From positions 1 to 25,508 of IMG/VR virus record IMGVR_UViG_3300048112_000129: a stretch of 25,508 nt of DNA. One strand, written 5' to 3'. The DNA is from a virus. Position numbers and translations under genes: made by a program. The notes beneath the pieces are model-generated. The model worked only from the letters and a program-made list of their open reading frames with translations. It ran no database searches and was not told the DNA's origin. Shown here one piece after another: positions 56 through 25,348 of the stretch (its first letter is position 1; each line of letters begins with the position of its first letter).

Positions 56-77
56 TTCGCTCTACTAGGAGAGTACG

Positions 78-416
78 ATGAGTATTAATGACGCAACACC
101 ACGTGATTGGGACCGTGTAACTAAGTCCAACAATTCCCACGATCTCGAAAACTATTTCGATCCTTACGACCAACCCCCAATAGCAGACCCAGTAAACGCA
201 CCCCCGCACTACAACACTGGGAACATCGAGTGCATCGAGGCTATCAAAGAGTCAATGACACACGATGCCTTCAAAGGCTACTGCAAAGGTAACGCCCTCA
301 AATATATTTGGCGCATGTCCTACAAAGGTAAACCAATCGAAGATCTCCGGAAGGCTATCTGGTACATCGAGCGCCTTATCGAATCTGAGTTGGAGCACCC
401 AACAATAGAACGATGA
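78..416 (+). CDS. DUF3310 family phage protein
   Basis: The 112-aa protein has a C-terminal half (about residues 38-105) that reads as a DUF3310 domain. It shows the P-x-H-Y motif (NAPPHYNTG), an E-x-I-E-A-I segment, FKGYCKGNALKYIWR, and a final K-x-x-E-D-L-x-K-A-x-W-Y-I-x-R-L helix. These small proteins are common next to phage replication genes; some are labelled nucleotide kinases, but no P-loop is visible here and the biochemical role is unknown. The first ~35 residues are polar and probably disordered. The start is supported by AGGAGAG 5-11 nt before ATG. It is the first gene of the early operon and its stop overlaps the next start (ATGA). Confidence 0.88.
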   Translation: MSINDATPRDWDRVTKSNNSHDLENYFDPYDQPPIADPVNAPPHYNTGNIECIEAIKESMTHDAFKGYCKGNALKYIWRMSYKGKPIEDLRKAIWYIERLIESELEHPTIER

Positions 417-637
417 GCGAGATTTGGACAGACATAGAAGGCGCAGTCGAAGAAGGGCACTTCATACAAAACCAGTTAGGTAAGACCGCCTATCTAGCAT
501 GTGACATGCAACGCAACCTTTATGTGTTTACCCACGAAGAACTCAAGACGTTCAAAAAGAAACTAAAAGTCATAGAAATCTTTCACCCTGGAGGGCGCTT
601 AAATGGACACAAAGGACTACTTTCAAAACATACCTAG
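413..637 (+). CDS. Small hypothetical protein, 74 aa
   Basis: I do not recognise the family. The protein begins at an ATG overlapping the previous stop (ATGA), which suggests translational coupling. The N-terminal part is acidic (WTDIEGAVEEGHF) and the middle has a KTAYLACDMQRNLYVFTHEEL stretch typical of a small mixed alpha/beta phage protein. The C-terminal ~12 residues overlap the next reading frame by 35 nt. The tight packing in the early operon supports a real gene; the function is unknown. Confidence 0.6.
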   Translation: MSEIWTDIEGAVEEGHFIQNQLGKTAYLACDMQRNLYVFTHEELKTFKKKLKVIEIFHPGGRLNGHKGLLSKHT

Positions 638-806
638 CCTTGACGAAGACAGGCTGCATCCCGAGTTCCATACCTACACAGCGGTATGGATGAAATCACG
701 AATGCCTCAAGCATATAACGAGCTAAAAGCCCGCTTCAAAGAAATCGAAGGCGAAGTCATGGCTCAGCACGAATGCAATGACGCCAACTCGGAGCTACCT
801 TTCTAA
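603..806 (+). CDS. Small hypothetical protein, 67 aa
   Basis: Family not recognised. A strong ribosome binding site (GGAGGGCG, about 590-597) precedes this ATG, although it lies inside the previous ORF (35-nt overlap). The protein is soluble and predominantly helical: YTAVWMKSRMPQAYNELKARFKEIEGEV. The end is joined to the DNA polymerase gene by a TAATG stop/start overlap. A small accessory protein translated just ahead of the polymerase is the best that can be said. Confidence 0.65.
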   Translation: MDTKDYFQNIPSLDEDRLHPEFHTYTAVWMKSRMPQAYNELKARFKEIEGEVMAQHECNDANSELPF

Positions 807-2599
807 TGCTAGTGACTCTTGACTTCGAAACGTATTACGACAAAAACCTTTCGCTAACTAAAATGACTACGATGGAATACGTCAGCCACGACTTGTTCAA
901 AGTGTGGGGCGTAGGCATCAAGATAAATCATGATGCAACAGAGTGGTATGGCGAAGACGATTGCGAAGAGGCGCTTCGATCCCTGAATTGGGACGACATA
1001 ACGCTGGTATGTCACAACACTCCGTTTGATGCTTATATTTTGACGCAGTATTACGGACTAATACCAAAGTACTACGTAGATACCGCTGCAATGAGTCGCG
1101 GGTTGTACCCAGGGCAAAGCGCTCGTTTGAAAGACGTATCAATACGCTGTTTCCCCGATGACGAAACAATGCGTAAAGGTGAAGAGCTAGCTAATGCTAA
1201 AGGTGTTTACGACTTAGACCCTGAACTAGAAGAAGCTATTGCTGGCTACTGCATACAGGATGTCGATCTTACTTACGCTATTTATCGTAAGTGGACTAAC
1301 CAAATGCCACTAAACGAACTTGATCTAATCGATCTCACATGCCGCATGTTCTGCGAGCCCAAGCTAAAGATTGACCGCGAACGACTGGCAAAGTACCACG
1401 AACAAGAGTTCAAGAACGCAGAGACGACCATCGCTGCAGCAGGCGTCGACCGCAAAGTCCTCAGCTCTAACCAACAATTTGCTGAGTATATTTATGAGAT
1501 TGGCCTCGTACCACCAACAAAGGTTAGCCCAACGACAGGCAAAGACATCCCAGCCCTTGGTAAAAACGACAAAGCCTTTACCCAACTGCAAAACATGTAC
1601 CCACAGTTCAAGCATGTATGGGACGCACGCATTGCCACAAAGAGTCGCTTAACCGAGACCAGGGCAAAACGCTTCTTGGAAGCTGCATGGAAAGACGACT
1701 GGTTACCTGTCCCTCTTAGATATTATGCGGCTCACACCGGACGTTTTGGCGGCACCGACAAGCTCAACATGCAAAACCTCCCTCGAGGCGGTGAGCTACG
1801 CAAATGCATTGTGGCACCTGACGACCATCTTTTGTTTGTTGCTGATTTATCCAACATCGAAGCCCGTATGCTTGCTTGGTTAGCTGGCGAAAGCGAATTA
1901 GTCGAACAATTCCGTAACGGGGACGACATATACAGTAACTTCGCCTCCAAGATTTACGAACGGCCTATCAATAAAAAGGACGACCCAATCGAAAGATTTG
2001 TAGGCAAGACCGCTATATTGGGTCTTGGTTACGGTATGGGCGCTCAAAAATTCAAAGACACGCTAGAAGCTGGAGCTATGGGACCACCTGTCCACTTCAC
2101 ACTAGAAAAAGCCAAACAAATTGTTAATACATACCGCAGTACATACTCAGGTATACAAAGACTCTGGCGCAAACTAGAGGACTTACTCAAACAAACTATG
2201 CACTCAGACAACTGGGGCAACACGTACGGGCCACTGACTGTTGGCGACAACACTCTACAACTGCCAAATGGCCTAGGGCTCAGGTATCACAACTTACGTT
2301 CTACCAGCCAAGGCCTTATGTACGACTCACGTAAAACTGAGTACACGTACGGCGGACGCATAACAGAAAACGTAATCCAAGCGTTAGCCCGCATAGTCAT
2401 TACTGACAGCATGTTACGACTCGACAAGACACACGATGTTGCACTCACAGTACACGACGAAATAATTATTACTGGTACTAATATTAAGCCTGATGCTACA
2501 ATGGAGAAGATTATCTCCGACATGTGTATACCACCTTGTTGGGCACCCGATTTACCGCTAGATGCCGAAGGCGGATACGCCAAAGAGTACAGTAAGTAA
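806..2599 (+). CDS. Family A DNA polymerase with 3'-5' exonuclease domain
   Basis: This 597-aa phage replicative polymerase should copy phage DNA and proofread. The DEDD exonuclease motifs are intact: Exo I D6-F-E8, Exo II N71-x3-D75, Exo III Y148-x3-D152. The polymerase motifs follow: motif A D347-L-S-N-I-E-A-R, the O-helix R-F-V-G-K401-T-A-I-L405-G-L-G-Y409-G-M, and motif C V-H550-D551-E552. There is no 5'-3' exonuclease domain, and the length is normal for phage PolA proteins of this type. The O-helix residue corresponding to E. coli Pol I Phe762 is Leu405. The start is an ATG in a TAATG overlap with the gene before. The csrA gene starts directly after the stop. Confidence 0.97.
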   Translation: MLVTLDFETYYDKNLSLTKMTTMEYVSHDLFKVWGVGIKINHDATEWYGEDDCEEALRSLNWDDITLVCHNTPFDAYILTQYYGLIPKYYVDTAAMSRGLYPGQSARLKDVSIRCFPDDETMRKGEELANAKGVYDLDPELEEAIAGYCIQDVDLTYAIYRKWTNQMPLNELDLIDLTCRMFCEPKLKIDRERLAKYHEQEFKNAETTIAAAGVDRKVLSSNQQFAEYIYEIGLVPPTKVSPTTGKDIPALGKNDKAFTQLQNMYPQFKHVWDARIATKSRLTETRAKRFLEAAWKDDWLPVPLRYYAAHTGRFGGTDKLNMQNLPRGGELRKCIVAPDDHLLFVADLSNIEARMLAWLAGESELVEQFRNGDDIYSNFASKIYERPINKKDDPIERFVGKTAILGLGYGMGAQKFKDTLEAGAMGPPVHFTLEKAKQIVNTYRSTYSGIQRLWRKLEDLLKQTMHSDNWGNTYGPLTVGDNTLQLPNGLGLRYHNLRSTSQGLMYDSRKTEYTYGGRITENVIQALARIVITDSMLRLDKTHDVALTVHDEIIITGTNIKPDATMEKIISDMCIPPCWAPDLPLDAEGGYAKEYSK

Positions 2600-2600
2600 T

Positions 2601-2780
2601 ATGTCGAGACTCGTTTTGACCAGAAAACTAAATGAATCTGTCGTTGTTCACCAAGACGACAAGGTTCTGCTCGCGGTCAAAGTTTCAAAAATCGACAGAA
2701 ACCAAGTTCGCCTCGCGTTTGACGCTGATCACGACATAAAAATCGATCGGCGAGAGGTGTATGACAAGCCCGAAGACTAG
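2601..2780 (+). CDS. csrA: Phage-encoded CsrA/RsmA-like RNA-binding regulator
   Basis: A 59-aa CsrA homologue, close to the usual ~60 aa. The beta1 strand S-R-L-V-L-T-R-K matches the CsrA N-terminus (M-L-I-L-T-R-R). It is followed by N-E-S, the N-Q-V-R-L-A-F core strand, and the C-terminal I-D-R-R-E-V-Y matching V-H-R-E-E-I-Y. Arg50 aligns with the RNA-contacting Arg44 of E. coli CsrA; the second basic residue of beta1 is Lys9 instead of Arg. CsrA dimers bind GGA motifs in mRNA leaders, usually blocking ribosome entry. I chose the ATG at 2601, two bases after the polymerase stop, because a longer in-frame version adds residues outside the fold. No strong RBS is seen, so expression may depend on coupling to the polymerase gene. 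Confidence 0.93.
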   Translation: MSRLVLTRKLNESVVVHQDDKVLLAVKVSKIDRNQVRLAFDADHDIKIDRREVYDKPED

Positions 2781-2804
2781 ACGCCTATCTACTTAACCTG
2801 CGCC

Positions 2805-2847
2805 TACTTGCAGTAAGTACGTCAGTTGAAGGCTCAGGAGGAGCTTT
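2805..2847 (+). promoter_or_regulatory. Primase mRNA leader hairpins; SD in a GGA loop (putative CsrA target)
   Basis: Two hairpins lie between csrA and the primase start. The first is TACTT-GCAGT-AAGTA (2805-2819). The second is AAGGCTC-AGGAG-GAGCTTT (2829-2847): seven pairs including one G-U, with loop AGGAG. The Shine-Dalgarno sequence AGGAGGAG (2836-2843) occupies the loop and the 3' stem, and the TTG start is at 2851. CsrA-family proteins prefer GGA exposed in a hairpin loop overlapping the SD, so this is a plausible target of the phage CsrA encoded about 50 nt upstream. The hairpins are read by eye; binding is inference. Confidence 0.5.
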
Positions 2848-2850
2848 AAA

Positions 2851-5364
2851 TTGCGAATAACCTTTCTTGAGGCCACTAATGGTCTCCCGCTTAGTAAGCA
2901 CTACTCAAAAGGTAGCGGTTTCAAACCATACCCGCACGTAAAAGCAGTTACGTCACATAAATACAACTTATCTGTTGATGCTGACGGCTTACAAACCTTT
3001 GAGAATCTTATTAGAGATCACGGAGCAAAAGGTCACTGCCTACTAAAGGGCAACCTAAAACGTGACTTAGTAGACGAATCTCGTGCAGGACAGACCAACC
3101 GTACCGAGTTAACAAACCTACTCGTGCTCGACATTGACGGCGTGCGCTTACCAAAATCTGTAGATACAGGCGATAAACTATCTAGTACTGACGTTACGTT
3201 TCTAGCCAATCAAATAGTTGCAGAACTACCTATTGAGTTGCGAGACATAAGCTACGTCGCGCAAGCCTCAGCAAGTTTGGGTCTTAAAGGCGACAAGATA
3301 TCTATGCATATCTTTATGCTCCTCTCAGTAGCCATGCCAGCAAAATCAGTAAAGCTGTGGCTACAAGACTGTAACTTTGAGTCTGATGTATTCAGCGAAC
3401 AAATGGAGCTGTCTGTAAACGGGCAATCATTGAAGTACCCTTTAGACACTTCAGTAGCTGACAACTCAAAGATCATATTCATAGCACCACCGTCTTTTGA
3501 ATCAACGCGACTAGACCCATTTGATTCCGACGATGATCGAATAGTTAAAGTAGACCGTGGGCAACCGACACTTGACCTAGCATCCTTGATGTCTGACATC
3601 AGCCCTCAACGTTGCCACGAGAAAGCGCAAAAGCACAAAGACACGTTGCGCGATGCAGCAGGCTTCAGCAAACGCCAAACTAAGATTCGCGTAGCAACCA
3701 TTGATAACCAAACAGAAGAAGTCCTATCTAATCCAGACAAGATGGCTATAGCCATTGTTGACGAGACTTCATTCCCATACATACGTTGCAACATCAACGG
3801 CGGAGACTCTGGCGCGTACTACTTCAACATGTCCAAGCCAACGTACATGTACAACTTCAAAGACGAACCACTGTTTGAGATCGAGAAAGCCGACAAAGAT
3901 TTTTACGTATCTATATTCGAACGTTACGAAGAGCGGTTAGAAGAAGTGGGACATGCAGTCAAACCAGTTGTACTGCGCGATTACTCAACTGACACCTTCT
4001 TCAACGGCGTGTATGACCCAAACACTAAACAGTTCGCTAAAGAATATCCGCTGACCCCCATCAGTAAGATGAACATCGAAGACTTCTATATGAATCACGG
4101 CAAAGTACCGCCTGACTTCATACCAGACGGACGCGTTATCTTTGACCCGACATCTAATGAAGAAGCTATTAACTTCAACAAAGTGCCTTACTACGTCAAC
4201 ACGTATCAAAAAAGCGACTACGTGCGTAATGCGCAGACGCCGCAAGTACCGTTAGAGATAGGCCACGGACAACGGATAAAGGACACCTGTCCACTGATAC
4301 ACACAATCATCTACCACATACTTGGCAATGGTGATGAAGAATACGAGCGCTTTATTAACTGGCTAGCATACATCTACCAGACGCGTAAAAAGACGGGCGT
4401 ATCCTGGGTACTGACAGGCACACAAGGCACTGGTAAAGGTGTCTTCTACTCCAAAATCCTCAGAGGGCTATTCGGTACACCACATGTACCCATGAAGTTT
4501 CTGCAAAGCATGGAAGAACAATTCAATCTGTATATGCGAGACGCGCTGTTTCTAGTGGTTGATGAGTTCCATATGGCATCAGCATCATCTAGCGCAGGTA
4601 AGATGGCAGACAAACTAAAGAACCAGATCACTGAGCCTACGATCACAATACGTGGTATGCGGTCCAATCAAGTAGAAGTTGAGTCTTACACCAACTATCT
4701 GTTCTTAACGAACAGGGTAGACGCAGTAAACATCGAGACTGGTGATCGCCGGTACAACATTGCACCCAAACAAGAAGAGAAGCTGCTCGAAAAGTTCCCA
4801 GGCATTGCCAAGCAATTAGACTCAGGAAAACTCGAGAAAGAACTGTATGAATTCGCTGGGATAATGCAAACGTACAAAGTAGATGCGCACCTAGCTAAGA
4901 CTGCAATTAACAACCTTGCTAAAGAACAGATGCGTAACGTATCAATGTCTGTGTTTGAAGAGTTCTGTCAGGCACTTAAAGAAGGCAAGCTAAGCTACTT
5001 CACTGACATTCTTGATATCAACACAGCAACTGTACTGCACTCCAACGAGATTGAAGCAGCGCAACGACTTGTTAAATCATGGATCGCTCACGCAGAGCAC
5101 CCATATATGGTTCTCCCAATGGAGCATCTGCGTACGGTATTCCACGTACAGACAGAGCAAAACCCGCGCCTGTCGCAACGTGAGTTTACAAAGCGCATGA
5201 GTAGAAACGGCATTGAGACAGAACGCAAACGCCCACACGGAGCAGCTAGAGATACAAATCCAATACGCGGAGTTGTTACTACGTGGCAGTCAAACGAATT
5301 AGAACTCAAGCGATTGCAGGAATCATATTTCACGGAACAAGACCGTAAATTGCTTACGGTTTAG
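2851..5364 (+). CDS. Phage primase-helicase (P-loop C-terminal ATPase, DUF5906-like)
   Basis: This 837-aa protein probably primes and unwinds DNA at the fork. The C-terminal half carries a Walker A G523-T-Q-G-T-G-K529-G and a Walker B hydrophobic strand ending D571-E572-F-H, followed by a sensor-like F-L-T-N-R segment. This is typical of phage D5/SF3-like helicases with DUF5906. The N-terminal third has L-L-V-L-D-I-D-G, compatible with a primase (AEP-like) active-site strand, but I cannot confirm the complete primase triad. The start is TTG, preceded by a strong AGGAGGAG; the rare start plus the leader hairpin suggests tight translational control. The stop lies just before promoter/palindrome site b. 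Confidence 0.85.
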   Translation: MRITFLEATNGLPLSKHYSKGSGFKPYPHVKAVTSHKYNLSVDADGLQTFENLIRDHGAKGHCLLKGNLKRDLVDESRAGQTNRTELTNLLVLDIDGVRLPKSVDTGDKLSSTDVTFLANQIVAELPIELRDISYVAQASASLGLKGDKISMHIFMLLSVAMPAKSVKLWLQDCNFESDVFSEQMELSVNGQSLKYPLDTSVADNSKIIFIAPPSFESTRLDPFDSDDDRIVKVDRGQPTLDLASLMSDISPQRCHEKAQKHKDTLRDAAGFSKRQTKIRVATIDNQTEEVLSNPDKMAIAIVDETSFPYIRCNINGGDSGAYYFNMSKPTYMYNFKDEPLFEIEKADKDFYVSIFERYEERLEEVGHAVKPVVLRDYSTDTFFNGVYDPNTKQFAKEYPLTPISKMNIEDFYMNHGKVPPDFIPDGRVIFDPTSNEEAINFNKVPYYVNTYQKSDYVRNAQTPQVPLEIGHGQRIKDTCPLIHTIIYHILGNGDEEYERFINWLAYIYQTRKKTGVSWVLTGTQGTGKGVFYSKILRGLFGTPHVPMKFLQSMEEQFNLYMRDALFLVVDEFHMASASSSAGKMADKLKNQITEPTITIRGMRSNQVEVESYTNYLFLTNRVDAVNIETGDRRYNIAPKQEEKLLEKFPGIAKQLDSGKLEKELYEFAGIMQTYKVDAHLAKTAINNLAKEQMRNVSMSVFEEFCQALKEGKLSYFTDILDINTATVLHSNEIEAAQRLVKSWIAHAEHPYMVLPMEHLRTVFHVQTEQNPRLSQREFTKRMSRNGIETERKRPHGAARDTNPIRGVVTTWQSNELELKRLQESYFTEQDRKLLTV

Positions 5365-5384
5365 TTATTAGTTATACTAATAAA
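5350..5384 (+). promoter_or_regulatory. Promoter with palindromic operator (site b)
   Basis: A perfect inverted repeat TTATTAG-TTATA-CTAATAA spans 5365-5383, a member of the dispersed AATATTAG-N5-CTAATATT family. A sigma70-like promoter overlaps it: -35 TTGCTT (5350-5355), 17-nt spacer, -10 TATACT (5373-5378). The start codon of the nuclease gene lies 24 nt after the 21-bp operator frame. The -35 is inside the end of the primase gene. A bound protein would cover the -10. Confidence 0.65.
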
Positions 5385-6878: not shown

Positions 6879-7032
6879 ATACAGACAGGAGATCCTCGAT
6901 GACATCCTCAGCCGTGAACCTAATCCCAGTAAAAAATCTGCGCCCCCCGCAGACGAGATATCTAAAAGGCGTCAAGCCGCCAAGCCTCAACATGCTAAAG
7001 CGCGGCAAACAAAACAAAAAGTTGGGCGATAA
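6733..7032 (+). CDS. Hypothetical protein, 99 aa, overlapping the Gp88-like gene
   Basis: This reading frame starts at ATG 6733 after AAAGGAG (6716-6722). The N-terminal ~60 residues look natural (MYYKRDGSAVEYKLV, DPKEATVW, RITAAEYRQEILDDIL). The C-terminus is Lys/Ala/Pro-rich and overlaps the following gene by 134 nt in another frame. It also overlaps most of the 6684 ORF. I favour it as a real small protein because of the composition of its first half, but the case is not settled. Confidence 0.5.
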   Translation: MQMYYKRDGSAVEYKLVTDPKEATVWSTHRLKKSEIKIMTKCDRITAAEYRQEILDDILSREPNPSKKSAPPADEISKRRQAAKPQHAKARQTKQKVGR

Positions 7033-7594
7033 AGTATCTGTCAAAATGTGGAAAGGCATGACTATGTACTCGCTGTCTCTAGAAGAACGCGCTACATGCC
7101 CATCTGACTGTGAGCAGTGGGACAACTGCTACGGTGACAACATGCCGTTCGCTCATCGTTTTGATCACAACGACCATAACTTCATTGGGTATTTAGAGAT
7201 GCAACTCACAGAGCTTAACGACAAGCATCCAGATGGTTTTGTTGTACGACTGCATGTCCTGGGTGACTTCTACGACGGCAGATACATAGTCCAGTGGCAG
7301 TTATGGTTACACCAATTTGAGAACCTACGCGTGTTTGGCTACACGCATCACACAGCAGATTCTCAATTGGGTAATATGATCAACAACGTAAACCGCTTGC
7401 ACAGCGATAGGTTCCGTATACGTTTCAGTGATGACTGGGACCAAGAGTTCAGCGCTCATGTTGTCCAATCAAGAGACTTAGAATACGTCGAGCACGGTGT
7501 TGTATGTCCCGAGCAACTAGGTAAAACAGACAGCTGTTCTTCTTGTGGCTACTGCTGGTCCAGCGATCAACCTGTTGTTTTTATTGAGCACTGA
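6899..7594 (+). CDS. Gp88-like Cys-rich phage protein
   Basis: A 231-aa protein with the look of the phage 'gene product 88' family. It has an N-terminal Lys-rich G-K-Q-N-K-K-L-G segment, then a Cys knuckle C67-P-x2-C71-x5-C77-Y-G, the central V-R-L-H-V-L-G-D-F-Y-D (residues 116-126), an F-G-Y-T-H strand, and a C-terminal cluster C203, C213-x2-C216-x2-C219-W. Seven cysteines in two clusters suggest bound zinc or an Fe-S cluster. The biochemical function of this family is not known to me. The start has AGGAG upstream but lies inside the 6733 ORF, so a later start is possible. The gene ends just before palindrome site c. Confidence 0.7.
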   Translation: MTSSAVNLIPVKNLRPPQTRYLKGVKPPSLNMLKRGKQNKKLGDKVSVKMWKGMTMYSLSLEERATCPSDCEQWDNCYGDNMPFAHRFDHNDHNFIGYLEMQLTELNDKHPDGFVVRLHVLGDFYDGRYIVQWQLWLHQFENLRVFGYTHHTADSQLGNMINNVNRLHSDRFRIRFSDDWDQEFSAHVVQSRDLEYVEHGVVCPEQLGKTDSCSSCGYCWSSDQPVVFIEH

Positions 7595-7612
7595 TATTAG
7601 TAAGGCTAATAA
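7584..7612 (+). promoter_or_regulatory. Promoter with palindromic operator (site c)
   Basis: The perfect inverted repeat TATTAG-TAAGG-CTAATA (7595-7611) belongs to the dispersed palindrome family. -35 TTGAGC (7584-7589), 17-nt spacer and -10 TAATAA (7607-7612) are in the same register as sites a and d. Unlike the other copies it abuts the next ATG (7613), so a transcript from it would be nearly leaderless for that ORF; it may mainly serve the helicase downstream. Confidence 0.6.
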
Positions 7613-7786: not shown

Positions 7787-7812
7787 TTCAAAATATTAGC
7801 TGTGCTAATATT
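7783..7812 (+). promoter_or_regulatory. Promoter with palindromic operator (site d)
   Basis: The perfect 8-5-8 inverted repeat AATATTAG-CTGTG-CTAATATT (7792-7812) is the clearest early-side copy. The promoter -35 TTGATT (7783-7788), 17-nt spacer and -10 TAATAT (7806-7811) overlap it, so the right half-site contains the whole -10. The helicase ATG lies 25 nt after the palindrome. Confidence 0.75.
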
Positions 7813-10379: not shown

Positions 10380-10811
10380 ATGAACGAGCACAGTTTTGTA
10401 CGAAGCATACATAACGCTCTGTCACCCGACGTCTACAAGTGGAAAATCCACGACACGTATACGGGAGGTGTGCCCGACGCCATGTATGCAGGCCCTGCAG
10501 GTGTGCTGTTCGTAGAGTACAAGTATGTCAAAGCTCTACCTAAGAAAGACACGACCGTGATCCGCCATTCGTTATCAGCGCTTCAATGTGCGTGGCTCGA
10601 GCGTATGAAAGCCAGTACATCAGTAGCATTAATATTAGGTGTAGGTGATTCAGCACTAATAATAGTTGACGAGTTCGCAGCTAATATATATAAATCTAAC
10701 TATGTAGAGGAAAGTATTCCACGGAAGCAGGTAGCTGAGTGGATCTACAACCAAACACACTCAGGAAGAGCACATGAAAAAAGCCCACGAGTTGCCACAG
10801 GCTGTGAATAA
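10380..10811 (+). CDS. VRR-NUC domain nuclease, 143 aa
   Basis: A compact PD-(D/E)XK enzyme of the VRR-NUC group. G-G-V-P-D33-A-M-Y precedes V-L-F-V-E46-Y-K48, the catalytic D...E-x-K; S-A-L-Q69-x2-W72-L follows, as in the family. Such phage nucleases cut branched or flap DNA and accompany SNF2-like helicases. The start has no strong SD sequence. The interval before it can form alternative hairpins, so translation may be regulated. The gene's end overlaps the XRE regulator by 38 nt. Confidence 0.9.
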   Translation: MNEHSFVRSIHNALSPDVYKWKIHDTYTGGVPDAMYAGPAGVLFVEYKYVKALPKKDTTVIRHSLSALQCAWLERMKASTSVALILGVGDSALIIVDEFAANIYKSNYVEESIPRKQVAEWIYNQTHSGRAHEKSPRVATGCE

Positions 10812-11349
10812 CTTACGCGCTATTTGGGACCAAAAGAAAGCTGAGATGAAGTTTACGCAAGTTGAAGCTGCGGCAAAACTTGGCTGGTCACAAAGCGCTG
10901 TATCTCATTATCTTAACGCTATTACTGAACTTGGCCCTGCGGCAATTATTAAGTTTGCTAATTTTTTGGGTGTTGATCCTGTTGAGATCGACCCGAACGT
11001 TCAAGAGTTCTTGCCTCACACTAGAACTCGAATAATCAAATATGACGTTGCCAATCTGTCAAAACAAATCAATGTAAAATACTACGATACTCACCCCCCA
11101 TCTTCTTTTTGGGTAAAAACAGACTCTAGCGTATTTACTTACCAAACCCATAGCGCGAACAAGAATGCTACGTGGTTCACTCATGTGTGCCCGCCAAAAG
11201 ACCACCCCAGAGCTAGCATTTATATGGTCCAAATTAAGGGCCAAAAAGAAGGTCGCATTTACAAAAAAGAAGACTTACCGCCAGAATCAGACATACATAA
11301 AAAGTTCGCCGTACTTGAGACAGAAGTTAACAACAGCATTACCGATTGA
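10774..11349 (+). CDS. XRE-type transcriptional regulator (probable phage repressor-like)
   Basis: A 191-aa protein. The N-terminal helix-turn-helix (about residues 26-48) reads K-F-T-Q-V-E-A-A-A-K-L-G-W-S-Q-S-A-V-S, followed by F-A-N-F-L-G-V-D-P-V-E-I, the usual XRE end. The C-terminal ~90 residues (S-S-F-W-V-K-T-D-S, then I-Y-M-V-Q-I-K-G) recall the S24/LexA-like dimerisation domain, but the G-D-S-M and K dyad motifs are not visible, so self-cleavage is not supported. GGAAGAG precedes the start. It is co-directional with replication genes, not divergent as in lambda-type switches. It is the best candidate for the protein that binds the dispersed palindromes, one of which lies directly after it. 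Confidence 0.82.
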   Translation: MKKAHELPQAVNNLRAIWDQKKAEMKFTQVEAAAKLGWSQSAVSHYLNAITELGPAAIIKFANFLGVDPVEIDPNVQEFLPHTRTRIIKYDVANLSKQINVKYYDTHPPSSFWVKTDSSVFTYQTHSANKNATWFTHVCPPKDHPRASIYMVQIKGQKEGRIYKKEDLPPESDIHKKFAVLETEVNNSITD

Positions 11350-11389: not shown

Positions 11390-11410
11390 CGTTGCAGGAG
11401 GCAACTCTCG

Positions 11411-11623
11411 GTGGAACAGATCTTATTAGAGAAGTACGGCCCGTTCATGGACTTGGAAGAACTTGCCAATCTATTAAGGATCAAGAAACAGTCGGTGTAT
11501 CAGCAGATATATCGCGGCCAACTAGACGTACCTCATGTACGGCGCGGTAAAAAGTATCTTTTTCCGACTCAAGAAATTGCTAAATACTTCACATCCCAGC
11601 TAAATCTTCCGCGCGGAGATTGA
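11411..11623 (+). CDS. Excisionase/AlpA-like HTH protein, 70 aa
   Basis: GTG start with AGGAGG (11396-11401) nine nt upstream. The fold signature is M-D-L-E-E-L-A-N-L-L-R-I-K-K-Q-S-V-Y-Q-Q (residues 13-32), followed by G-Q-L-D-V-P-H-V-R-R-G-K-K-Y-L-F and an E-I-A-K-Y-F helix. This is the MerR-like helix-turn-helix plus wing of HTH_17/excisionase proteins. Its place beside the integrase suggests a directionality factor or a regulator of integration. The last 35 nt overlap the 3' end of the integrase gene on the other strand. Confidence 0.8.
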   Translation: MEQILLEKYGPFMDLEELANLLRIKKQSVYQQIYRGQLDVPHVRRGKKYLFPTQEIAKYFTSQLNLPRGD

Positions 11624-12611
11624 CGTACCTTGAGAGTTGTTCAAGTGAGCTGTGTCCCGAAACAACTTGCACTTGTTCAACTCGCATCCCCCTCTCAAAC
11701 ATCCGACTTATCGCCTCATGACGCAAATCATGGAAGCGCAGGTCGTCAATCCCCAGCTTCTTAGTCATCTTGGCAAATTTGTCAGAAATCGACGCAGTAG
11801 TCCTTACAGTGAAAGGGTAATCACCTTGCCCAAGATCATTCTGTGCACGTAGCAACGCCTCTCTCACGCCCTCCACAAGCGGTACTTCCTTCCAAGACTT
11901 GCCTGTTTCTGAGTCTTTATCTTTCCGATTCACGCGGACAAGATCCTTTTCCCAGCACACGTTAGACCATTTTAACTCGTGAATTTCCCCTTGGCGTAGA
12001 CCAGAGTGAACAGCTATATCGATCGCGTACCACAGCCAATTAGGTTTTTCATTACTGCCTTTATAAATGCCGCACTCAAACTTCAGTGCTTCTAGTTCAG
12101 ACGGGGTTGGCCGACGCGTACGCCACACGCTGCCTTTGATCACCTTCTTTCTTTTCAGCTCGTCGATAGCTTGCGCCACAACATTCTCTTGAGTTGTGAT
12201 CCGACTGGCTTCTACGACCTGACGCAAGTAGTACATTTGTTTTTGAAGCGTTGAAGCGGAAATCGTTTTGTAGCGCATAGCTGCAAAATCCATAACCATG
12301 TCGTAGGTCATATCGTGTATCGATACACCGCTAAAATATTTTTTGATCTGATTAAGTTGTCCCATCTTCGGGACAGGGGTAACGATTTCAAACTTAGTAT
12401 TTTCGGCTACTAATCGGTCGACCAAGTAATCAATGTGAGTAGACCGCGTACCGCTGACGTCTACCCACGAATGACTGTCCATCTGGGATTCTATTTTTAA
12501 AACCCATGAAGCGGCGGCTGCCTTAGTAAAAAAACTTTGTGTTTGTTGCGGGTAACCCTTGATGCGGATCTGAGCTTTCCACTTCTTTCCGCGCTTTGTT
12601 ATCGTTGCCAT
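11589..12611 (-). CDS. int: Tyrosine recombinase (phage integrase)
   Basis: A 340-aa integrase. An N-terminal arm-binding-type segment (G-K-K-W-K-A-Q-I-R-I-K-G, residues ~8-19) is followed by a core-binding SAM-like region (about 55-155) and the catalytic domain. Catalytic residues: R206 (H-S-G-L-R), Lys near 230-238, H294-x2-R297 (H-D-L-R-H), H320 (S-G-H-S), and Y329 (R-Y-V-N-L). All are present, so it should be active. The ATG is chosen at 12611; the two TGGCACAC repeats lie directly upstream, overlapping the likely leader or RBS. The adjacent tRNA-Ser-like attP core supports site-specific lysogeny. Confidence 0.97.
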   Translation of the reverse strand: MATITKRGKKWKAQIRIKGYPQQTQSFFTKAAAASWVLKIESQMDSHSWVDVSGTRSTHIDYLVDRLVAENTKFEIVTPVPKMGQLNQIKKYFSGVSIHDMTYDMVMDFAAMRYKTISASTLQKQMYYLRQVVEASRITTQENVVAQAIDELKRKKVIKGSVWRTRRPTPSELEALKFECGIYKGSNEKPNWLWYAIDIAVHSGLRQGEIHELKWSNVCWEKDLVRVNRKDKDSETGKSWKEVPLVEGVREALLRAQNDLGQGDYPFTVRTTASISDKFAKMTKKLGIDDLRFHDLRHEAISRMFERGMRVEQVQVVSGHSSLEQLSRYVNLRAEDLAGM

Positions 12612-18181: not shown

Positions 18182-18210
18182 ATTATATTAGCTATGCTAA
18201 TACTTTTAAA
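18182..18210 (-). promoter_or_regulatory. Late promoter with palindromic operator (site f)
   Basis: The inverted repeat TATTAG-CTATG-CTAATA (18186-18202) is a perfect 6-5-6 copy of the dispersed palindrome. On the minus strand, -35 TTTAAA (18210-18205), 17-nt spacer and -10 TATAAT (18187-18182) overlap it. The structural gene start is 19 nt beyond the operator frame. Confidence 0.7.
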
Positions 18211-21897: not shown

Positions 21898-22015
21898 GTC
21901 TTTTTACCAATTGAGCCACCTGCTCTTCGAGTTCAGAAATACGGTCTTCTGTTTCTGAAAAGTGCTCCATAATTACGTCAAGCGTGTTTTCTAATTTTCG
22001 AGCTATATCATCCAT
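21881..22015 (-). CDS. Coiled-coil peptide, 44 aa
   Basis: An ORF with a TAATG junction to the fibre gene. M-D-D-I-A-R-K-L-E-N-T-L-D-V-I is followed by hydrophobics in heptads (I-S-E-L-E-E-Q-V-A-Q-L-V-K-R-L). It looks like a short trimeric or dimeric coiled coil that could serve as a fibre chaperone or joint. No database family known to me. Confidence 0.6.
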   Translation of the reverse strand: MDDIARKLENTLDVIMEHFSETEDRISELEEQVAQLVKRLEETS

Positions 22016-23190
22016 TAGTCTTCCGTCCACTGTGAGCCATCCCAATAACGGCGATTGTTAGCGCCTTGACTGCCTACTTCGGTCTCATTACCCGTTGCTG
22101 TAAGTCTTTCGTAAACCACCGTGGACGTATCCCGATTCGTGTTAGTCGATCTACTTGTCCCTGTGTCATGCGCGGTAGTGTTGTTAGTGTCAAAAGTCGT
22201 AGTGAACGACGTAGTAGTTGATCTGCTTGTTCCAGTAGCCCGCGACGTATTAAACGACGTAGTAGTTGATCTGCTGGTGCCAGTGGCGCGAGACGTAGTA
22301 ACCGACGTAGTAGTTGATCTGTTGGTGCTAGTGGCGCGAGACGTGGAGAGGTACGTGGTGGTTGCTTTGCTCGTGCCGCGAGAGGTTCCGCGAGAGGTTC
22401 CACGGGTGGTTCCGCGAGAGGTTCCATAAGTAGTGGTGCGAGAAGTGCTGCGGGTTCTGGCGAGCCTCTTAATTCGATACTGTGTGGTCGTGACGCTATA
22501 ACCGTCAACAATAGAACTGTGTGTAGCGCCCCGCTGGTATGTAAAACCGCCTGTCGTATAAGTGGTGCTGGCTGCTAAAGATGTGGAATTTAATTGACTA
22601 CCGTACCACCAGAATTGGGTGCCAGAGCCAGCGATATTGCCGCCAGATATACGTGTTACACGGTAACTTGTGCTGTACGCTGGGTAGCTTTGTGCGTGTG
22701 TCTGTGTGTTAAACGACGTGCTACGCGACGTGTTAAACGACGTGACGATAGCCGTATTGAACGATGTAGTGTACGACGTATTGAACGACGTAGTAGTTGA
22801 TCTGCTTGTACCGTAAGTGGTCGTTGTGTTGAACGACGTGGCGGTTGCTTTGGCGGTGCCAAAAGAAGTCGTGGTGTTAAAGGCTGTAGTCGTAGCGTTG
22901 CTTGTACCAAAAGTAGTGGTCGTGTTGAACGCTGTAGTCGTAGCGTTGCTTGTACCAATGCTCGTACTATAAGTCGTTGTATAGCTGGTCGAAGTGTCAA
23001 ACGCTGTAACTGTACCAAAAATGGTACTGGTGTCTCTGGTTGTGTCGTAAACAGCATTCCAGACAGTGCCTAACGTACCGTTGTTGTTGGCAACCACATA
23101 GTTAACGCCATAAAGCGTCCCCTGGTCACCTTTAGCGAAGATTTGGGTAGGCTCTTTAAGAGTACCACTGTCGTTAACTTTTATTGACAT
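22015..23190 (-). CDS. Thr/Ser-rich repeat tail fibre protein, 391 aa
   Basis: The protein has a conserved-looking N-terminus (S-I-K-V-N-D-S-G-T-L-K-E-P, then G-V-N-Y-V-V-A-N-N-N-G-T). Then comes a 16-residue repeat array (residues ~79-165), a globular-looking insert (~167-245, W-W-Y-G-S-Q-L), a second repeat array (~248-358, first G-T-S-R-G, then the 16-residue unit), and a C-terminal G-S-Q-G-A-N-N-R-R-Y-W-D-G-S-Q-W. The unit is about G-T-S-x-x-T-T-T-x-F-N-T-x-x-x-x. Almost half of the arrays is Thr or Ser. It is probably a fibre or spike that meets the host surface. The AAGGG before the ATG fits as RBS. The adjacent glycosyltransferases make it a candidate for O-glycosylation. Confidence 0.85.
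   Translation of the reverse strand: MSIKVNDSGTLKEPTQIFAKGDQGTLYGVNYVVANNNGTLGTVWNAVYDTTRDTSTIFGTVTAFDTSTSYTTTYSTSIGTSNATTTAFNTTTTFGTSNATTTAFNTTTSFGTAKATATSFNTTTTYGTSRSTTTSFNTSYTTSFNTAIVTSFNTSRSTSFNTQTHAQSYPAYSTSYRVTRISGGNIAGSGTQFWWYGSQLNSTSLAASTTYTTGGFTYQRGATHSSIVDGYSVTTTQYRIKRLARTRSTSRTTTYGTSRGTTRGTSRGTSRGTSKATTTYLSTSRATSTNRSTTTSVTTSRATGTSRSTTTSFNTSRATGTSRSTTTSFTTTFDTNNTTAHDTGTSRSTNTNRDTSTVVYERLTATGNETEVGSQGANNRRYWDGSQWTED
22186..22329 (-). repeat. 48-bp tandem repeats coding R-S-T-T-T-S units (fibre array 2)
   Basis: Three near-identical 48-bp copies; the shared stretch CGACGTAGTAG begins at 22207, 22255 and 22303. Each encodes a 16-residue unit (residues 288, 304, 320 onward). Such repeats can expand or contract by slippage or recombination. 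Confidence 0.8.
22765..22956 (-). repeat. 48-bp-period repeats coding G-T-S/A units (fibre array 1)
   Basis: Four more diverged copies of the 16-residue unit, with Gly-Thr at residues 79, 95, 111 and 127. The nucleotide copies are less similar than in array 2, which suggests array 2 is younger. Confidence 0.75.
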
Positions 23191-25323: not shown

Positions 25324-25348
25324 ATTATATTAGCTGAACTAATATAAT
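25324..25348 (-). promoter_or_regulatory. Late promoter with the longest palindromic operator (site g)
   Basis: A perfect 10-5-10 inverted repeat, ATTATATTAG-CTGAA-CTAATATAAT. On the minus strand a TATAAT -10 lies in the right half. The -35 is weak (TAGCAT at 17-nt spacing), so an activator may be needed. The BppU-like gene start lies 24 nt beyond the 21-bp operator frame. It separates that gene from the lysin. Confidence 0.7.

Follow-up and report, generated by a model that had tools for sequence, protein, structure and literature searches.

In the repression exerted by CsrA and RsmE the classical layout is a GGA placed in a hairpin loop over the Shine-Dalgarno sequence (SD), where the bound protein occludes the ribosome, and ligands obtained by SELEX (systematic evolution of ligands by exponential enrichment), as well as CsrB, also present GGA within a hairpin loop (PMC7652899). 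Genes for such proteins were counted in 30 of 2517 phage genomes (Sobrero and Valverde 2020, PMC7366521), phage csrA has been proposed to act on the host, including its CRISPR-Cas (Campa 2021, PMC8450108), and knockdown of one phage csrA, gp28 of PTXU04, leads to smaller plaques (PMC11879866). In phage T4 the replication cluster encodes RegA, a small protein that represses about 30 early mRNAs (PMC3014915). We found no report in the open-access literature of a phage-encoded CsrA with operators on phage genes. Here we analyse a virus record of 25.5 kb (IMG/VR record IMGVR_UViG_3300048112_000129, positions 1 to 25,508; hereafter, the window) which carries csrA between the genes for a family-A DNA polymerase and a primase-helicase-like protein. 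Judging from its sequence and from those of its relatives, a working CsrA dedicated to the phage probably represses translation of the phage's own early mRNAs, those for replication and excision.

As an earlier sequence-only reading of the window had noticed, csrA lies just behind the polymerase stop and before the primase gene: its ATG at 2601 is one base past the stop (TAA 2597-2599), and the product matches the CsrA profile PF02599 with 50.3 bits (2.2e-13) against a curated cut-off of 27. The protein shares no more than 30% identity with E. coli CsrA, and its L6 and R50, which correspond to the E. coli residues L4 and R44 known to be critical for RNA binding (PMC7652899), are invariant across 18 phage proteins and E. 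coli CsrA. Its AlphaFold model (predicted local distance difference test, pLDDT, 88.1) was matched by Foldseek, as a 59-residue monomer, to solved CsrA/RsmA/RsmE chains with a probability of 1.00, a template modelling (TM) score of about 0.65 and an E-value of about 0.005, the strand-turn region being longer by 4 residues than in those proteins. The ratio of nonsynonymous to synonymous substitution rates (dN/dS) among close relatives is mostly about 0.05-0.2, with one very close pair uninformative and the largest dS saturated, and by this comparison of coding sequences the gene is under purifying selection.

The position of csrA is as constant as its sequence. Primase scans covered 59 loci first, then a wider set and then a more distant one with primases 41-46% identical to the query; csrA was found between -4 and about +75 nt of the primase start in 102 of 102 near-clade loci with upstream DNA (many are near-duplicates, and at a limit of 90% identity about 65 distinct primase leaders are left), and in the distant set it adjoins the primase wherever the contig extends upstream. 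The gene is single-copy in the genomes checked, and the phage family carrying it between polymerase and primase is mostly marine. A tblastn search of cultured phages with the phage CsrA gave no match, and one with the family consensus weak matches only; relatives devoid of csrA, sought in viral_contigs through the primase of Aeromonas phage phiA008, were not found. Three prophages of Halomonas (Vreelandella) and Pseudomonas (L121, L123 and L124), with primases 34-37% identical, have a csrA-like open reading frame 4-5 kb upstream, and the primase hairpin described below is absent from them.

That hairpin, whose AGGAG loop is the SD of the primase gene, had been proposed to lie at 2829-2847 before the TTG at 2851, and it is there to the base. 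The TTG start is backed by alignments of relatives from residue 1, many of which use ATG. The 40-nt leader folds with -11.6 kcal/mol (z -2.70; 1 of 200 shuffles equally good) and its predicted fold pairs the start codon too, in an outer part which is not conserved, while the whole 90-nt leader folds no better than shuffles (z -1.01). The 15-nt core GGCTCAGGAGGAGCT does not vary among the closest relatives, whereas its flanks drift and TTG gives way to ATG as start codon; since the arms are constant, covariation within this group is a powerless test. In other branches the SD is held in the loop of other stems, such as GCUCU[GUAGGA]GGAGC, UUGACCU[GUAGGA]GGGUUAA, AAGAUUC[GUAGGA]GGGUCUU and UUCUCU[AGGA]GGAGAA, and in an arm-swap test only 10 of 2000 swaps reach the observed pairing. 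An earlier version of this test, where the wrong GGA was chosen in AGGAGGAG, was discarded and replaced. Next to a conserved csrA, the primase SD is thus covered by a conserved hairpin under selection, with GGA in its loop, in the layout classical for a CsrA target.

Under a permissive definition (stem score of at least 4, short loop) such hairpins occur at 10-17% of the GGA-type SDs of phages without csrA, so that the single primase hairpin is weak evidence alone, and for this reason the relatives were used. Homologous leaders without hairpin or GGA would speak against the sequence-only reading, and for the primase alone the result is mixed, as 23 of 53 non-redundant leaders with a GGA-type SD keep the hairpin by the permissive rule; family-wide the outcome is strongly favourable, for other early genes carry the site. 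The hairpin follows the distance between csrA and primase, being found in 0 of 7 leaders where the gap is <8 nt and in 26 of 42 where it is >=26 nt, which fits either coupled translation of near-abutting genes or merely too little non-coding room. In one branch (L082, 5021-5041; L098, 2831-2853; L115, 5020-5042) a second GGA-loop hairpin, e.g. AAGCCGCU[AAUGGAC]AGCGGCUU, falls within the opening codons of the primase gene. Some 40 nt separate it from the hairpin on the SD, and at this distance one CsrA dimer could bridge both; the same branch has two further weak GGA hairpins within csrA, and codon constraint may have a share in these structures.

The strongest covarying hairpins of the entire set stand at the position homologous to the SD of g3, the small gene before the polymerase gene polA. 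Around the same AGGAG loop the relatives form stems as different as CAUC/GAUG, CACC/GGUG, CAGC/GCUG, UACC/GGUA, UAGUAC/GUACUA, AACUAC/GUAGUU and CCGC/GCGG, and more; their own pairing amounts to 3.92 versus 2.62 ± 0.15 for swapped arms (0 of 2000, z 8.6). In an alignment of the 22 sequences with a one-base spacer before the core, 3 of 4 pairs are changed on both sides, and the covariation score is 0.386 against 0.154 ± 0.029 after shuffling (0 of 500), all slid registers being worse. For the excisionase-like gene a dedicated scan of relatives revealed compensated stems as well (GUUGC/GCAAC, GAAGC/GCUUC, GUCU/AGAC, AGAC/GUCU, AUGC/GCAU), with 0 of 5000 swaps reaching the observed value. Thus the AGGA loop stays constant while the stems change by compensatory substitutions on g3, the primase and the excisionase-like gene. 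Relatives form the pentaloop hairpin on the DUF3310 gene too, for instance as UUUACU[AGGAG]AGUAAA in L039; taken alone, this site shows little covariation (339 of 2000 swaps), and in the window RNAfold favours an overlapping 5-bp register. In distant relatives polA itself bears the motif, e.g. ACAATTC[AAGGAG]GAATTGT. Arm swaps on polA, csrA, SNF2, DUF3310, PD-(D/E)XK and other families were not significant or marginal, and we do not claim covariation there.

Permissive hairpins are found in 26 of 40 g3 leaders, 8 of 16 of the DUF3310 gene and 11 of 37 of the nuclease, next to the primase figure given above, and in 5-12% of most other families, so the sites cluster on early genes near csrA. A stricter motif, with at least 4 Watson-Crick pairs around [AGGAG] or [NAGGAG], is found at 3 of the 8 AGGAG SDs of the window (DUF3310, primase, excisionase-like; binomial p about 6e-5 at a background of about 1%), at 41 of 292 non-redundant SDs of the near clade and at 16 of 98 of the far clade (14-16%). 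At AGGAG copies that lie elsewhere than at gene starts in these genomes it occurs 3 times in 315 (near clade) and 3 times in 153 (far clade); in cultured phages without csrA, Vibrio phage nt-1 (NC_021529) being among these controls, 0 times in 75; in marine HMO-2011-type phages without csrA (44% GC, family-A polymerase) 4 times in 216; and with shuffled 5' flanks at a rate of 1.0%. Fisher tests of the csrA-bearing clades versus controls give p of about 6e-5 to 5e-11. One could still argue that complementary flanks are frequent in SD-rich leaders, as the permissive rate in csrA-less phages indeed shows, but with the strict motif at 14-16% versus a background of 1-2%, and with the covariation tests, which rule chance out for the set, such an origin is hardly credible, though a single site such as the window's g3 hairpin could be due to chance.

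The original observation therefore holds and should most likely be widened to a phage-dedicated CsrA regulon of early genes. Control of the primase-helicase by the phage's own CsrA, as first proposed, is favoured by the selected hairpin beside csrA, the primase being only one of several sites. We propose that the CsrA dimer would bind the AGGA loops of short hairpins set exactly on the SDs of early genes and thereby block the 30S ribosome. The window phage would have as targets the DUF3310 gene, the excisionase-like gene and the primase, and a weak site precedes g3, polA and csrA. As these last three genes overlap or are nearly contiguous, repressing g3 or polA should also reach back to csrA, and by the site before g3 (before polA in distant relatives) csrA would limit its own synthesis. 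Replication and excision proteins would in this way be shut down in a timed or homeostatic manner, as RegA does in T4. It is also reasonably probable that CsrA was domesticated by a large, mostly marine phage lineage. The protein would then be a dedicated master regulator which limits itself and governs the lineage's replication and excision mRNAs, free of the Csr signalling of the host, and its preference would be shifted to AGGAG loops. In this way a RegA-type early-gene switch would have been made from a bacterial global regulator, and the operators would turn over among g1, g3, polA, primase, nuclease and excisionase-like gene while csrA stays between polymerase and primase.

The hairpins might be selected and yet be read by another protein, such as the DNA polymerase, in the manner of T4 gp43, which represses its own mRNA via a hairpin operator (PMC3014915), or the g3 product; or they might only set the accessibility of the SD, as structure alone is able to tune translation. 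Hairpins are present also on genes that do not adjoin csrA, which would suit such a reader; against it, the conserved element is the AGGA loop, the very recognition element of CsrA, csrA is always in the same operon, and the motif is absent in csrA-less marine phages that do have a family-A polymerase. We consider this explanation unlikely. It is rather improbable, too, that CsrA acts as an activator by opening a hairpin which buries the SD, as described for ymdA (PMC7652899). The stability of the window's primase hairpin (the 40-nt energy given above) would agree with activation, but here the SD is the very loop that CsrA would occupy, to the exclusion of the ribosome, stems of relatives are typically short (4-5 bp), and a second site further upstream was not found in the window.

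Phage RsmA/CsrA has been proposed in print (Campa 2021, PMC8450108; Sobrero and Valverde 2020, PMC7366521) to rewire chiefly the host, its carbon metabolism, biofilm or CRISPR-Cas; the phage hairpins would then be targets of the host CsrA or of minor weight. The plasmid-encoded RsmQ does have its main effect on proteins of the host, and of 733 plasmid proteins it affected 16 (PMC9928087). However, in our case cognate sites on the phage's own genes evolve in a compensatory way and csrA is strictly linked to the replication operon; besides, most published phage CsrAs are host-like, whereas that of the window has the low identity to E. coli CsrA and the lack of tblastn matches in cultured phages mentioned above. 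We regard the host-centred explanation as quite improbable, while additional effects of the phage CsrA on the host are possible. Two further suggestions of the sequence-only reading, that replication is tied to the host carbon state and that the phage protein competes for host CsrA RNAs, gain no support in the sequence and are speculation: no CsrB-like cluster of GGA hairpins was seen in the window, Rfam gave no match, and clusters of four GGA hairpins, present in 11 relatives, consist of coding and leader sequence of csrA and primase.

Several points weigh against repression by the phage CsrA as we propose it. Most near-clade loops, those of the window included, have no A two bases 5' of GGA, as ANGGAN would require; a clear hairpin is absent in about half of the primase leaders and one third of the g3 leaders; several window hairpins exceed the 4 bp usual for SELEX ligands; a stem by itself could hinder or help translation, free of any protein; and with its weak g3 site the window phage makes autoregulation less secure than in relatives, from which the loop is mainly deduced. 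In four unrelated cultured phages with csrA the strict motif occurs at 1 of 57 SDs, so that a phage csrA does not in general go together with such a hairpin regulon. As for recognition, the window loops are [AGGAG] preceded by C or U, outside the strict ANGGAN hexaloop consensus; CAGGAGG of the window agrees with the CsrB repeat CAGGA(U/A/C)G at 6 of 7 positions, and [AAGGAG] on polA of far relatives does fit the ANGGAN hexaloop. The specificity of the phage CsrA may be shifted, because most near-clade loops lack the leading A which polA of the far clade has.

The early module lies on the plus strand and comprises the DUF3310 gene, two small genes, polA, csrA, the primase-helicase-like gene, a PD-(D/E)XK nuclease, an SNF2-type helicase, a helix-turn-helix (HTH) regulator and the excisionase-like HTH_17 gene; the integrase (11589-12611, minus) and other genes are on the opposite strand. 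The one-base overlap of g3 and polA recurs in 20 of 30 relatives, and g3 had no match in Pfam and PHROG searches. Coordinates are collected below.

Table 1. Early genes and candidate CsrA sites in the window
Feature	Position	Strand	Remarks
Putative CsrA site, hairpin UACU[AGGAG]AGUA, SD of DUF3310 gene	63..75	+	strict motif, 4 Watson-Crick pairs; 2 nt 5' of the ATG
DUF3310 gene (PHROG 'nucleotide kinase')	78..416	+	Pfam PF11753 1.6e-20; PHROG 236 2.8e-32; first early-module gene visible in the window
Weak g3 site, CCC[UGGA]GGG over g3 SD	586..595	+	only 3 bp in the window phage; no folding excess
g3, small gene	603..806	+	stop and polA start share one base
Family-A DNA polymerase (polA)	806..2599	+	Pfam DNA_pol_A 1e-31; PHROG 17 7.4e-85; stop TAA 2597-2599
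csrA, CsrA/RsmA-family RNA-binding protein, 59 aa	2601..2780	+	Pfam PF02599
Putative CsrA site, hairpin AAGGCUC[AGGAG]GAGCUUU over primase SD	2829..2847	+	7 bp including one G.U pair, AGGAG pentaloop; then AAA and TTG at 2851
Primase SD, AGGAGG	2836..2841	+	AGGAG is the hairpin loop; final G opens the 3' arm
Primase-helicase-like protein, 837 aa	2851..5364	+	TTG start; PHROG 24712 3.7e-180 over 1-822; DNA primase PHROG 1156/1829; DUF5906
Putative CsrA site, hairpin GUUGC[AGGAG]GCAAC over SD of excisionase-like gene	11391..11405	+	strict motif; dedicated scan of relatives
Excisionase-like small helix-turn-helix protein	11411..11623	+	GTG start; adjoins integrase; Pfam HTH_17 3.7e-10; PHROG 66 'excisionase and transcriptional regulator' 1.4e-4

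Some further features were noted on the way. At 6899-7594 the window has a homologue of the phage Gp88/DUF7227 family, and in the relatives L042 and L058 the SD of this gene lies inside CGCC[AAGGA]GGCG. The HTH gene of L039/L245 (11976-12545, minus), homologous to window 10774-11349, has AGUUUC[AGGAA]GAAACU over its SD, and a lysogeny-type HTH regulator may also be a target. Palindromic sites of the TTAGCTATGCTAA type occur at 5368-5380, 7796-7808 and 18188-18200 and, with one mismatch, at 7597-7609 and 25330-25342 (8 matches at <=1 mismatch versus 3.2 expected); they sit 5' of several genes, are common at equivalent places in relatives and contain TATACT-like -10 boxes, and they may serve an early regulator as operators or promoters. 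A 391-aa protein at 22015-23190 (minus), without a Pfam match and made mostly of Thr/Ser-rich short repeats (TTTFGTS..., SRSTTTSFNTSRATGT...), is possibly a fibre or adhesin.

Although csrA of phages and plasmids has long been known, its role was guessed to be host manipulation, and the small-plaque knockdown is the sole functional hint in phages. Covarying operators on the phage's own mRNAs beside a strictly linked csrA would amount to a concrete regulon. What a phage CsrA is for can thus be tested on short synthetic leaders, and nature supplies dozens of pairs of protein and operator in which to study CsrA specificity and its co-evolution with targets.

Compared with repression by CsrA, RsmA and RsmE, as seen for RsmE on the hcnA SD (PDB 2JPP), E. 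coli glgC and the CsrB sites, the system described here shares the protein family, the fold, the invariant equivalents of L4 and R44 and the GGA hairpin loop over the SD. It differs in that it is encoded by a phage in a replication operon, its apparent targets are phage genes, each gene has one AGGAG penta- or hexaloop, mostly without the leading A of ANGGAN, and no CsrB-like antagonist is seen. With the csrA/rsmA genes of cultured phages (F116/RsmM, VvAW1, Vibrio phages, E. coli phage PTXU04 gp28) it has in common that the gene is phage-borne, while those genes stand in other contexts, have host manipulation as their proposed role and, in the four phages tested, go with the low motif count (1 of 57) already given. 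The closest cultured relatives by primase, Kochitakasuvirus KPP25 and Aeromonas phage phiA008 (30-32% identical), have no csrA beside it. The best functional analogue would be RegA of T4, along with the autogenous repression by gp43 and gp32: RegA too is a small repressor from the core DNA-replication cluster that occludes the initiation regions of many early mRNAs (PMC3014915), as we propose for the phage CsrA. The likeness is one of analogy only, for by Pfam and by fold the protein is a CsrA and no member of the RegA family; RegA has an unrelated fold, and the sites that it binds at the AUG are unstructured and A+U-rich, whereas in the present phages a CsrA fold would meet structured AGGA hairpins.

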